64,000 nucleotides of DNA from Amycolatopsis suaedae. GTDB lineage: Bacteria > Actinomycetota > Actinomycetes > Mycobacteriales > Pseudonocardiaceae. Positions within the stretch are counted from its first letter, which is position 1. The number at the start of each line of letters is the position of its first letter. This document shows, piece after piece, positions 11,281 through 35,335 of this stretch. The notes below the pieces were generated by a model. It was not told the origin of the DNA and searched no databases. It worked only from the letters and a program-made list of their open reading frames with translations. The DNA lies in NCBI RefSeq assembly GCF_004214935.1, contig NZ_SFCC01000006.1, positions 1-64,000 of the forward strand, in the 5' to 3' direction. A program made the position numbers and the translations under genes.

Positions 11281-12091
11281 CTGACCGGAGTTCAGCGGAG
11301 TTGTGCGCGCTGAACACGGTGACCTCGTCGCCGTGTTCAGCGTACAGCTCGCGTAGCCGCTCGATGTTGTTCAGCCGGTTCGCCCGGTTCATCTGCACCA
11401 CCTCCTGGAACCCGGCGAGCAGCGGCGGGCAGTGCGGCCGCGTCGGGTCCAGCTGTCCGAAGTGGAAGTAGGAATCGCCGGCGTGCAGCAGCCAGCCGTC
11501 GCCGGTGTCGACGGCGACACCGGCGTGGCCGTTGGTGTGACCCGCCAGTGGAACGAGCAGGATCTGGGATCCCAGACCGGCCAGTTCGCGGACCGCGTCG
11601 AAGCCGAACCACGGCTCGCCTGCCGTCTCGTAGGTTGTCCACTTGGGACTGTGTGCGAACTGCACCGCGCGGTATCGGGACTTCTCGGTGAATCCGCGGG
11701 GTTCGGTCGCGGCGCGGTGCTCCTCGGCGTAGACGTGCACCGTGGCCTCCGGGAAGTCGGCCAGCCCACCAGCGTGGTCCATGTCCAGGTGGGTGAGCAC
11801 GATGTGCCGGACGTCGCGCGGGTCGTGCCCGAGCCGCCGGACGTGGGCGATCGCGTTCTCCGCGGGCACGGGCTTGGCGCCGAGGACATGCCGCAGCGCG
11901 CCTAGCCACGGGCCCGGCCGGGTCAGCGCCTGCGTGCCGAAGCCGGTGTCGACCAGAACCAGCCCGGAGTCTGTCTCGAGGAGCAGACAGTGGCAGACGA
12001 GTTCGGCCCGCTGCAGCAGCCCACCGGTCCCGTCCAGCAGCCGCCCGCCCGGCGGGCGGAACGTGCCGCAGTTGAGATGGTGGACCTTCAC
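11270..12091 (-). CDS. Metallo-beta-lactamase-fold hydrolase, paralogue A
   Basis: This is a 273-residue MBL-fold protein related to AHL-lactonase-like hydrolases. The metal motif reads THLDMDH, so the usual HxHxDH is HxDxDH with Asp for the second His. LAGHTNGH and LLHAGDSYF supply further ligands. It is the third gene of an operon (TetR, paralogue B, then this one) and overlaps its neighbour by 4 bp. Paralogue B is clearly homologous along its whole length, so this is a tandem duplication. Lactone or ester hydrolysis is likely; the substrate is unknown. Confidence 0.87.
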   Translation of the reverse strand: MKVHHLNCGTFRPPGGRLLDGTGGLLQRAELVCHCLLLETDSGLVLVDTGFGTQALTRPGPWLGALRHVLGAKPVPAENAIAHVRRLGHDPRDVRHIVLTHLDMDHAGGLADFPEATVHVYAEEHRAATEPRGFTEKSRYRAVQFAHSPKWTTYETAGEPWFGFDAVRELAGLGSQILLVPLAGHTNGHAGVAVDTGDGWLLHAGDSYFHFGQLDPTRPHCPPLLAGFQEVVQMNRANRLNNIERLRELYAEHGDEVTVFSAHNSAELRSARR

Positions 12092-12900
12092 ACTCGGCTC
12101 CTCATCGCCAGGCGCCGGAATTCCAGCGCGTTGTGCGCGGAAAAGACTGTCACCTCGTCATGCACCGCCACAAGGTCGCGAAGTCGTGTCTGGTTGGCCA
12201 GACGCTGGTCGCGCTCGGTCTGCATGATCGACTCGAACAGCGCCAGTGCCGGCGGGCAGTACGGCCGGACCGGGTCCAGTTCGCCGGGGTGGAAATAGGA
12301 GTCGCCGGCGTGTAGCAGCCAGCCGTCGCCGGTGTCGACGGCGACACCGGCATGGCCGGGGGTGTGCCCCGCCAGCGGTACGAGCAGGATCTGGGATCCC
12401 AGACCGGGTAGCTCCCGCACGGACTCGAAGCCGAACCACGGCTCGCCGATGCTGCCATGAGCGGCCCACCGCGGCCCGTGCTCGAACTGGATGGGCCGGT
12501 AACGCGGGTCGCTCAGCGCCCGTAGCTCGCGCTCGTTGACATGGACGCTGGCGTCCGGGAAGTCGACGAGGCCGCCCGCGTGGTCGAGATCGAGATGCGT
12601 CAGGACGATGTGCCGCACGTCGCGTGGATCGTGGCCGAGCGCCCGGATCTGCGCGACGGCCGTGCGGCTCTCGTCGGGAACCGGGTTGGTCAGCCGGGTG
12701 AACCGGGCACCCAGCCACTCGGCCGGGCGGTGCACGGCGGGCGTCCCCATGCCGGTCTCGACGAGCACGAGGCCGGAGTCCGTCTCGAGGAGCAGACAGT
12801 GGCAGACGAGTTCCGCCCTGCGGAGCAGACCCGGCTGACCGTCCAGCAGCCTGCCGCCGTGGGGGCGCATCGGCCCGCAGTCGAGGTGGTGGACCTTCAT
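12088..12900 (-). CDS. Metallo-beta-lactamase-fold hydrolase, paralogue B
   Basis: This is a 270-residue paralogue of the preceding protein. The shared motif THLDLDH again has Asp in place of the second histidine; LAGHTPGH and LLHAGDSYFHPG follow. The N-termini MKVHHL(N/D)CG are almost identical. The gene overlaps both neighbours by 4 bp (12088-12091 and 12897-12900), so TetR and the two hydrolases are cotranslated. The difference between the two substrates cannot be read from the sequence. Confidence 0.87.
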   Translation of the reverse strand: MKVHHLDCGPMRPHGGRLLDGQPGLLRRAELVCHCLLLETDSGLVLVETGMGTPAVHRPAEWLGARFTRLTNPVPDESRTAVAQIRALGHDPRDVRHIVLTHLDLDHAGGLVDFPDASVHVNERELRALSDPRYRPIQFEHGPRWAAHGSIGEPWFGFESVRELPGLGSQILLVPLAGHTPGHAGVAVDTGDGWLLHAGDSYFHPGELDPVRPYCPPALALFESIMQTERDQRLANQTRLRDLVAVHDEVTVFSAHNALEFRRLAMRSRV

Positions 12901-13478
12901 GACAGCTCCCTCTCGAACGTGACCCGCAGGAACTCGCCGATAGTGCGCAGCGGGGTGATGTCGCGCTGGGTGCGGGACAGCAGCAGGGCGCCTTCGATGG
13001 AAGTCAGCGCGATCGTGGCGAGCGTGTCGGCACCGGGCTGGGGAAGGCCCCTGCCGACGAGGTAGACGGAGATGACCTCGTGCCAGCTCCGGTAGCCCTC
13101 CTCGCAGGCCGCGCGGATCGGCTCGCTGCCACCGGCAGCCTCAAGGGAGATCGTCGCCAGCGGGCAGCCCTTGGTGAACCCGGAGCGCGTCAGGGATTCG
13201 GCCAGCGCGTCGGTGACCGCGACGATCGCGTTGCCCGGGTGCTCGGCGTTGTGTGCCAGCAGTGTCCGCAACTCCTCGCACAGTCGCCGTGCGGACAACT
13301 CGACGGCCTCGACGGCCAGCTGCTCCTTGCCACCGGGGAAGTGGAAGTACAGCGAGCCCTTCGGGGCCTCGCCGGAACTGAGCAGCTCGTTCAGGCCGGT
13401 CCCGTGATAGCCCCTGGCGGGGAACAGCTCCGCGGCGGACTCCAGCATCCGCTGCCGGGTGTCGGTACGACGTGGCAT
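12897..13478 (-). CDS. TetR family regulator (LmrA/YxaF-like)
   Basis: This 193-residue repressor has a helix-turn-helix at residues 8-52 (LNELLSSGEAPKGSLYFHF) and the KGCPL segment typical of the LmrA/YxaF group. ATG 13478 (MPRRTDTRQ) is a normal start for this family; a GTG 9 bp upstream is possible. It heads the operon with the two MBL hydrolases, and autoregulation through 13491-13510 is likely. Confidence 0.9.
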   Translation of the reverse strand: MPRRTDTRQRMLESAAELFPARGYHGTGLNELLSSGEAPKGSLYFHFPGGKEQLAVEAVELSARRLCEELRTLLAHNAEHPGNAIVAVTDALAESLTRSGFTKGCPLATISLEAAGGSEPIRAACEEGYRSWHEVISVYLVGRGLPQPGADTLATIALTSIEGALLLSRTQRDITPLRTIGEFLRVTFERELS

Positions 13479-33703: not shown

Positions 33704-33706
33704 CTT

Positions 33707-35335
33707 TCAGAGCTGGCTGATGTCCAGCTTGCCCTCGGAGTGGAAGGCCCGCAGGCGCTTCTTGTCGAACTTGCCGACGCTGGTCTTGGGCACCTCGTCG
33801 ACGAACGTCCAGTTCTCCGGCAGCTGCCACTTCGCCACCTTGCCCGCGAGGAAGTCCCGCAGCTCCTCCGGCGTCGCGCTCTCCCCCTCGCGGAGGACCA
33901 CCGCGACCAGCGGCCGCTCGTCCCACTTCTCGTCCGGCACGCCGATCACCGCGGCCTCGGCCACCGCCGGGTGGCCCATGACGGCGTTCTCCAGATCCAC
34001 CGAGGAGATCCACTCGCCGCCGGACTTGATGACGTCCTTGGCCCGGTCGGTCAGCGTGAGGAACCCGTCCGGCGTGATCTTCCCGACGTCGCCGGTGCGC
34101 AGCCAGCCGTCATGGAACTTCTCGGGGTCCACATCGGACCCACCGTGGTACGAAGCCGCGATCCACGGCCCCTGCACCTCGAGTTCGCCGACGCTTTCGC
34201 CGTCCCACGGCAGTTCCTCGCCGGAGTCACCGATCAGCCGGGCCCGCACCGACGCCGGGAACCGGCCCTGCGTGTAGCGGTACTTCCAGCGCTCCTCCCC
34301 GGTCGCGTGGGCGGGCGGGCGCGCGACGCTGCCCAGCGGCGACGTCTCCGTCATCCCCCAGGCGTGCAGGATCGGCACGTCGTAGCGCTCCTCGAACGCG
34401 TGCATCAGCGACGGCGGCGCCGCCGAACCGCCGACGACCACCTCCCGCAGGTGCGAGATGTCCTGGGGGCTGGCGTCCAGCTGCTGCAGCAGGCCCTGCC
34501 AGATCGTCGGGACGGCGGCGGCGAACGTCGGCTTCTCGGCGGCGAGCAGCCGGGTCAGCGGTTCCGGCTGCAGGAAACGGTCCGGCATCAGCAGCGAGGC
34601 GCCCACCATCATGGCGGCGTAGGGCAGGCCCCACGACATGGCGTGGAACATCGGGACGATGGCGAGCGCCTTGTCCGACTGGGCCAGCCGCATGGAGTCG
34701 CTCATGCACACCTGCATGGAGTGCAGCCAGATCGACCGGTGCGAGTAGGCGACGCCCTTCGGGTCGCCCGTCGTGCCCGATGTGTAGCACATCGCGGCGG
34801 CCGCGCGTTCGTCCACATCGGGCCAGTCGAAGGTGTCTGGCTGACCAGACAGCAGCTCGCTGTACGAGTGGACCTCGACACCATCGGGTGCCTCCAGAGT
34901 GGACGCGTCACCGTTCGCGACGATCACGTGGCGCACCGTCTCCATGCGGGGGAGCTGCTTGGCCAGCAGCGGCACCAGCGTGCCGTCCACGATGATCACG
35001 TGGTCTTCCGCGTGGTTGGCGACGAACACCAGCTGGTCCGGGAACAGCCGGATGTTGAGCGTGTGCAGCACGGCACCCATCGCCGGGATGGCGACGTACG
35101 CGGCGAGGTGCTCCGCGTTGTTCCACATGAAGGTGCCGACCCGCTGGTCGCCGGTGACCCCGAGGCCGCGCAGGGCGTTCGCCAGCCGTGCGGCGTGCCC
35201 GCCCAGCTCGCCGTAGCGCTCCCGGCGTGATTCGGAACCGGTCCAGGTGATCACTTCACTGTCCGCGTGGACCGTGCTGCCGTGCCGCAGCAGATTTCCC
35301 AAAGACAGCTGCCCGTCCTGCATCGTGCTCAACAT
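33707..35335 (-). CDS. Long-chain fatty-acid CoA ligase
   Basis: This 542-residue AMP-forming enzyme activates fatty acids to acyl-CoA. CYTSGTTGDPKGV is the P-loop, GMTETSPLG the A5 motif, DGWLRTGDVG the A7 motif, and PKTSVGKFDKKRL carries the catalytic lysine. ATG 35335 has GGGAG upstream; an earlier frame extension is unsupported. LSGQPD (34836-34849) contains a perfect TCTGGNNNNCCAGA palindrome. It is a single gene, followed by repeat copy 4. Confidence 0.93.
   Translation of the reverse strand: MLSTMQDGQLSLGNLLRHGSTVHADSEVITWTGSESRRERYGELGGHAARLANALRGLGVTGDQRVGTFMWNNAEHLAAYVAIPAMGAVLHTLNIRLFPDQLVFVANHAEDHVIIVDGTLVPLLAKQLPRMETVRHVIVANGDASTLEAPDGVEVHSYSELLSGQPDTFDWPDVDERAAAAMCYTSGTTGDPKGVAYSHRSIWLHSMQVCMSDSMRLAQSDKALAIVPMFHAMSWGLPYAAMMVGASLLMPDRFLQPEPLTRLLAAEKPTFAAAVPTIWQGLLQQLDASPQDISHLREVVVGGSAAPPSLMHAFEERYDVPILHAWGMTETSPLGSVARPPAHATGEERWKYRYTQGRFPASVRARLIGDSGEELPWDGESVGELEVQGPWIAASYHGGSDVDPEKFHDGWLRTGDVGKITPDGFLTLTDRAKDVIKSGGEWISSVDLENAVMGHPAVAEAAVIGVPDEKWDERPLVAVVLREGESATPEELRDFLAGKVAKWQLPENWTFVDEVPKTSVGKFDKKRLRAFHSEGKLDISQL

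Follow-up and report, generated by a model that had tools for sequence, protein, structure and literature searches.

A palindrome repeated within the genes of the window

The window analyzed here is the first 64,000 nt of contig NZ_SFCC01000006.1 of Amycolatopsis suaedae (assembly GCF_004214935.1), and its genes carry copies of an interrupted palindrome, TCTGG-N4-CCAGA, which occurs seven times exactly (0.03 expected from dinucleotide shuffles) and 16 times with at most one mismatch (1.7 expected). The whole 7.5-Mb genome has 47 exact copies of this 10-base form and none of its reversed control. Alignment of these 47 sites gave a longer motif, GTCTGG-N4-CCAGAC, the added outer position being G in 80 of the 94 half-sites. 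It is well supported by sequence comparison that these palindromes match the operator of HutR, an IclR-type regulator of histidine utilization. The scores in bits given below come from a model of that operator, for which 56 of 71 named hutR loci, mostly from Amycolatopsis and kin, were used; in 54 of them a site with no more than three mismatches lay near hutR, and the model was built on the 36 different sequences, all from other species, that had two mismatches or fewer.

Two metallo-beta-lactamase-fold genes carry the first three sites (coordinates of the 16-mer): ATCTGGGATCCCAGAC, a HutR-type site of 24.1 bits, at 11562..11577 in the gene 11270-12091(-) and again, with the same score, at 12389..12404 in the gene 12088-12900(-), and a full-arm site (an exact 16-mer) without the AT centre, GTCTGGTTGGCCAGAC, at 12188..12203 in the second gene (7.7 bits). 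A PfkB-family kinase gene, 18348-19280(+), has the HutR-type site GTCTTGGATACCAGAC at 18875..18890 (25.3 bits). The ABC-2 membrane gene 22144-23355(-) contains the weak one-mismatch site GTCTCGTTGGCCAGAC at 22862..22877 (4.6 bits), the one-mismatch site GTCTGGCCGGACAGAC at 23147..23162 (-2.9 bits), and the HutR-type site GTCTGGAGTACCAGAT at 23198..23213 (16.6 bits), while the ABC ATPase gene 23352-24266(-) has the two-mismatch site GTCTGAGATCACAGAC with an AT centre at 23514..23529 (20.6 bits). The one-mismatch site GTCTGGTCCGCCAGCC at 24744..24759 in the gene 24259-24849(-) scores 0.9 bits; this site and that at 23147, both already listed with one mismatch or as a looser form in the initial annotation of this DNA, score near or below zero and may be chance matches. 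An FAD-dependent oxidoreductase gene, 25259-26806(-), carries the one-mismatch site GTCTGACCGCCCAGAC at 25390..25405 (6.8 bits), a C39-like peptidase gene, 30042-31295(-), the HutR-type site GTCTGGGATCCAAGAC at 30480..30495 (25.6 bits), and a thioesterase gene, 31405-31800(-), the one-mismatch site GTCTTGGCGACCAGAC at 31430..31445 (8.7 bits). Two HutR-type sites 52 bp apart, GTCTGGGATTCCAGAA at 32908..32923 (21.3 bits) and GTCTGGGTTCCCAGAC at 32960..32975 (20.4 bits), lie in the metallophosphoesterase gene 31808-33538(-). The full-arm site GTCTGGCTGACCAGAC at 34835..34850, without the AT centre (7.7 bits), is in an AMP-binding enzyme gene, 33707-35335(-), and the weak one-mismatch site GTCTGGTCGGCGAGAC at 44662..44677 (4.6 bits) in an amidohydrolase gene, 43995-45596(+).

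The initial annotation had listed five exact copies of the 10-base form, of which those at 12390, 32909, 32961, and 34836 are placed correctly and the one given as 11573 begins at 11563; it missed 12189 and 23199, which bring the real total to seven. Its one-mismatch sites (18876, 24745, 25391, and 30481) are all present, and of its two looser ones, 23515 indeed has two mismatches and 23148 has one. As it remarked of paralogues, the copies at 11563 and 12390 fall in adjacent genes of one fold. Its statement that the sites lie in reading frames, in different phases, agrees with our analysis: the 15 window sites that match the 16-mer exactly or with a single mismatch are all inside predicted genes, and all three phases are used.

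Excess of the motif and its confinement to five contigs

There are 35 full-arm sites in the genome and 46 copies of GTCTN3ATN3AGAC, against one for the control of the latter, and both sets are confined to the contigs C2, C27, C29, C31, and C32, five of 32. The shorter 10-base form gave one extra site on C28, which is without the GTCT/AGAC outer arms and was set aside. C29 has 10 exact, 24 one-mismatch, and 28 two-mismatch sequences; the averages for 59 palindromes of the same composition are 0.1, 2.9, and 40.5. The exact count is above that of every control palindrome (maximum 2), and one control attains 34 in the one-mismatch class; on C29 the exact class alone is therefore beyond all controls. 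The codon-preserving null that the initial annotation proposed did not reproduce the excess: the genes examined contain 33 exact 16-mers, whereas 100 within-gene shuffles of synonymous codons gave 1.9 on average and 6 at most (1104 predicted genes, 1.1 Mb, picked largely for bearing sites). An iterated in-gene motif in excess of codon use is thus upheld, and the proposed genome-wide element resembling HIP1 is not, the sites being clustered on five of 32 contigs.

At a threshold of 12 bits, the operator model finds 83 sites, and 58% of the gaps between them are shorter than 2 kb (15% under uniform placing). Seventy-eight of the 83 are wholly inside predicted genes, for a coding fraction of 0.893. 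The site-bearing genes include metG-, tatD-, ksgA-, sdhA/sdhB-, hemD-, and helicase-like genes, those of AMP-binding enzymes and transporters, and the hut genes; 60 genes scanned within or near the clusters other than that of C27 and the stretch of C29 at 82-88 kb, some of them not site-bearing, showed no common function. Dense HutR-type sites also lie in a sugar-type operon on C2 at ~171-182 kb, with PfkB, class-II aldolase, and transporter component genes. As the aldolase marker of this operon lies elsewhere in relatives, the sites may be tied to location rather than to the ancestry of the genes.

The maps of four relatives (G060, G074, G013, and G063) were used to place the site-bearing contigs, with 26 markers made and 13 mapped. 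Six of seven markers from these contigs, namely the window, hut, a secA-like gene and sdhA on C31, the 277-kb position of C2, and guaB on C27, are 0.71-1.81 Mb from dnaA in the relatives; the SecA and IMPDH domains of the secA-like and guaB markers were confirmed. Three markers from site-free contigs, which we take to be lpd, obg, and metK, are >2 Mb from dnaA in all four relatives. The dnaA gene of A. suaedae itself is on the site-free contig C22.

The expansion is limited to A. suaedae among 80 genomes of the genus, 397 of the order, and 390 of the family, which are overlapping sets. The exact 16-mer is found 0-4 times in each of the 79 other genus genomes and 0-3 times in each other genome of the order (35 in A. 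suaedae), and the 389 other genomes of the family have 0-5 copies each of GTCTN3ATN3AGAC (46 in A. suaedae). When orthologues in G060 were compared, those of <55% identity or <70% coverage being left out here and in the motif-codon comparison, 28 site genes and 291 others had protein identities of 77.8 and 78.1 and fourfold-site identities of 0.590 and 0.599. The GC content at third codon positions in A. suaedae is 0.918 in site genes and 0.930 in others (p 0.016), a decrease that may be caused by the sites themselves. Across 42 aligned in-gene sites, G060 differs on average at 5.2 of the 12 arm positions. All 29 relatives aligned at window site 34835 have two or more arm mismatches. The sites probably arose by substitution within existing genes. 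Residues identical to G060 make up 154 of 256 (60%) in the motif codons and 10191 of 12840 (79%) elsewhere in the same genes, and we favor the view that the sites forced amino-acid replacements. Because codon shuffles fail to yield the excess and the motif codons are less conserved, selection appears to act on DNA rather than on protein.

Relation to the HutR operator

The HutR motif of C. resistens is listed as GTCTGWWATWCCAGAC in PMC8222616. Of 20 congener regions with the exact site, 16 have it at a divergent HutR/HutH pair, whose proteins are 82-84% (HutR) and 75-79% (HutH) identical to those of A. suaedae; the gene on the HutH side encodes an aromatic amino acid lyase according to Pfam. 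In three further regions (L073, L075, and L078), a permease-like gene adjoins the exact site, and Pfam, run on one of the three, assigned that one to the cytosine/purine/allantoin type; the last region has the site elsewhere. Relatives therefore keep one or few sites. Among the 71 named hutR loci, one site with at most one mismatch is found in 46, none in 22, two in two, and three in one, and 44 of the 46 single sites are within 400 bp upstream of hutR. The locus L237, with three sites, was considered as a second expansion and proved ordinary, its sites being at the starts of hutH-like and hutR-like frames.

At scores of at least 20 bits, the operator model matches 62 places in the 1.155 Mb of site-bearing contigs, none in 0.333 Mb of the other contigs of A. 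suaedae, and one in 0.8 Mb of G060, which is its hut operator; permuted models give 0.1 matches on average and three at most. Agreement extends to the positions at which the sites vary, since 48 of 66 one-mismatch sites have their mismatch at half-site positions 5 or 6, where the operators vary as well. Of the 35 full-arm sites, 12 have an AT centre and 23 are without it; the centre is also present in 38 of 66 sequences with one mismatch, 14 of 77 with two, and 7 of 660 with three. This pattern would fit a choice of sites by total affinity. The two-mismatch class shows no overall excess, and the AT centre in its 14 sequences, against a background of 0.02, therefore indicates that it includes some genuine sites.

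The hutR gene of A. suaedae (C32:8238-9047(-)) has its operator at C32:9058 and is inside one of the site clusters. This operator is located upstream of hutR as in relatives; the other sites are mostly in non-hut genes. HutR of A. suaedae has IclR-type helix-turn-helix (HTH) and effector domains with an ordinary recognition stretch. A HutR with an altered DNA-binding domain was considered and rejected, the stretch LPRSTTYHLL being unchanged. At 15 positions, the residue of A. suaedae is found in none of 56 aligned homologues, and one such position (residue 30, A to V) falls in the predicted HTH at 9-58. Among the matches listed from the open-licence literature, no title concerns an in-gene expansion of HutR sites.

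Possible roles of the sites

We favor, at a little under even probability, the explanation that HutR-type operators were multiplied in one lineage and that HutR, or a protein with its specificity, has an architectural role limited to a chromosomal domain. One or few ancestral hut operators would have given rise to the ~83 modeled sites of at least 12 bits by substitution inside genes, and the sites would be kept by selection for protein binding. HutR would then bind the in-gene sites in the cell, and the bound HutR (or the protein of the same specificity) would be a domain-limited architectural or marking factor. An architectural role is proposed because the clusters span unrelated genes, with housekeeping genes among them, show no promoter preference, and are found on five contigs only. 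IclR-family factors are able to bind as tetramers, according to PMC8222616, and bridging of clustered sites through such tetramers is therefore plausible. Going further, it is a tentative proposal, which we hold with distinctly less than even confidence, that the catabolic repressor HutR has turned into an organizer of a chromosome domain and that dozens of operator-type sites have been written into core and accessory genes of one part of the genome at a cost in protein conservation, the sampled relatives retaining one or few.

The architectural role is proposed partly by analogy with SlmA and MatP, which serve as markers of chromosome regions in Escherichia coli, and we regard SlmA as the nearest working analogue. 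SlmA is TetR-like and binds FtsZ, and we know of no division partner for HutR, the candidate reader being of the IclR family. Like SlmA, HutR is of a transcription-factor family, and the sites in A. suaedae resemble those of SlmA in being tens of palindromic, mainly coding sites on part of the chromosome, here five of 32 contigs. SlmA, which acts in nucleoid occlusion in E. coli, has ~50 palindromic sites, mainly coding and excluded from Ter (PMC3116907), whereas those in A. suaedae form clusters and are limited, among the genomes searched, to this one. The matS sites of MatP also form a short interrupted palindrome within one chromosomal domain, the Ter macrodomain of E. coli (PMC3116907). 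The motif in A. suaedae is likewise short, interrupted, and confined, but the protein differs, and in the four relatives six of seven markers are found at a distance of 0.7-1.8 Mb from dnaA, not at a terminus. With respect to the HutR/hut operator of Actinobacteria, A. suaedae shares the 16-bp palindrome and its tolerated positions and has hutR with its operator, whereas relatives usually have one site upstream of hutR and A. suaedae has ~83 modeled ones, mostly in-gene and clustered.

Several observations weigh against the architectural explanation. The six near markers fall on both sides of dnaA in the relatives, the seventh (fba on C2, ~174 kb) maps elsewhere in them, and the chromosomal domain is derived from the relatives' maps and not from the contig order of A. 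suaedae itself. Helical phasing of close site pairs was not significant (R 0.34, p ~0.08 at 10.5 bp). The strict patterns were searched over the whole genome, and the model controls from other contigs amount to 0.33 Mb. The motif-codon test sets the sites against whole genes, and the sites could have settled where the protein is freer. Finally, the AT centre is looser in genes (12 of 35 full-arm sites) than in operators (A in 71 of 72 counts), and the reader may therefore not be HutR itself.

An expanded HutR regulon, in which in-gene sites control the transcription of many operons through roadblock, silencing, or internal promoters, is unlikely but deserves attention before the other alternatives. 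The motif is a transcription-factor operator and one dense cluster spans the hut genes themselves, as such a regulon would have it, but just five of the 83 sites are not wholly inside genes, without promoter preference, and the 60 scanned genes, including the metG-, tatD-, ksgA-, sdhA/sdhB-, and hemD-like ones, do not share a function. The greater tolerance of non-AT centres in genes than in hut operators would suit a different DNA-binding protein, either unrelated or a diverged IclR paralogue, whose motif coincidentally equals the HutR operator. We consider this rather improbable: the genome does have 15 further IclR-like matches, but each is at most 35% identical to HutR of G060, and the mismatch positions are the same as in hut operators.

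We give still less credence to the idea that the clusters are tracts imported from an unsampled donor with a genome-wide motif. The clusters are patchy with bare stretches between them, as imported tracts would be, but site genes and others are equally diverged from G060 (77.8 and 78.1; 0.590 and 0.599) and no donor was found among the 80 genus, 397 order, and 390 family genomes; a sister donor as distant from G060 would fit the equal divergence. Decoy sites that titrate HutR and so set the threshold of hut induction would account for the number and clustering of operator-like sites, but titration needs neither the restriction to five contigs nor the coincidence of sites with protein changes, and we hold this to be quite improbable. 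The least credible explanation, a HIP1-like element from a methyltransferase-linked repair process, shares with HIP1 an iterated palindrome far above chance, but HIP1 of cyanobacteria is an 8-mer tied to methyltransferases (PMC4390886), and the motif here is a 16-bp interrupted one with the tolerance of a protein operator, clustered on five of 32 contigs (no search for methyltransferases was made).

Another palindrome, GTCCACWGTGGAC, is present in the window at 42263-42275 and 46738-46750. Each of 80 genus genomes has 13-300 copies (0-3 of the reversed control), and A. suaedae has 184; in its site-bearing stretches, genes contain 16 of 17 copies, and 80 of 86 counts at the centre are A or T. 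This dispersed, genus-wide, in-gene palindrome, and not the HutR-type motif, is the better candidate for a HIP-like element. It resembles facing DnaA boxes only in part, because it lacks conservation of the flanking T. In fetched DNA from G060, a de novo palindrome scan gave this palindrome as GTCCACNGTGGAC, with 22 of 22 copies inside genes. The remaining strongly iterated palindromes examined in A. suaedae are intergenic and form a separate class. TGAAGG-N3-CCTTCA, perhaps a terminator-like intergenic repeat, has 69 copies in 1.16 Mb, two of them inside genes and often paired 30 bp apart (window positions 54, 229, 25172, 33655, 33685, 40609, and 40639, and 62 more in fetched contigs). TTTAGC-N2-GCTAAA has 23 copies in fetched contigs, none inside genes and 14 on C27 (window positions 8425, 8483, and 16516); CCAATG-N3-CATTGG has 19 copies on C29, C31, C2, and C27, all outside genes and spaced 30 bp apart in pairs or a triple; and TACTA-N11-TAGTA has nine intergenic copies, on C31 only among five contigs examined. 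In the pooled named hutR loci of Amycolatopsis, AGCAA-N7-TTGCT has 44 copies in 11 of 33. The window also has its greatest AT skew, 0.258, at 48001-50000 among 32 steps of 2 kb.

If HutR-type operators were indeed multiplied for an architectural role, a single lineage would show a metabolic transcription factor in transition to a chromosome-structuring protein, with the ancestral state retained in relatives. The origin of SlmA-like factors from ordinary repressors and the spread of site arrays through coding sequence, a long-standing question, would then become directly testable. Even with another role for the sites, an operator rewriting coding sequence over part of a genome would be unusual.

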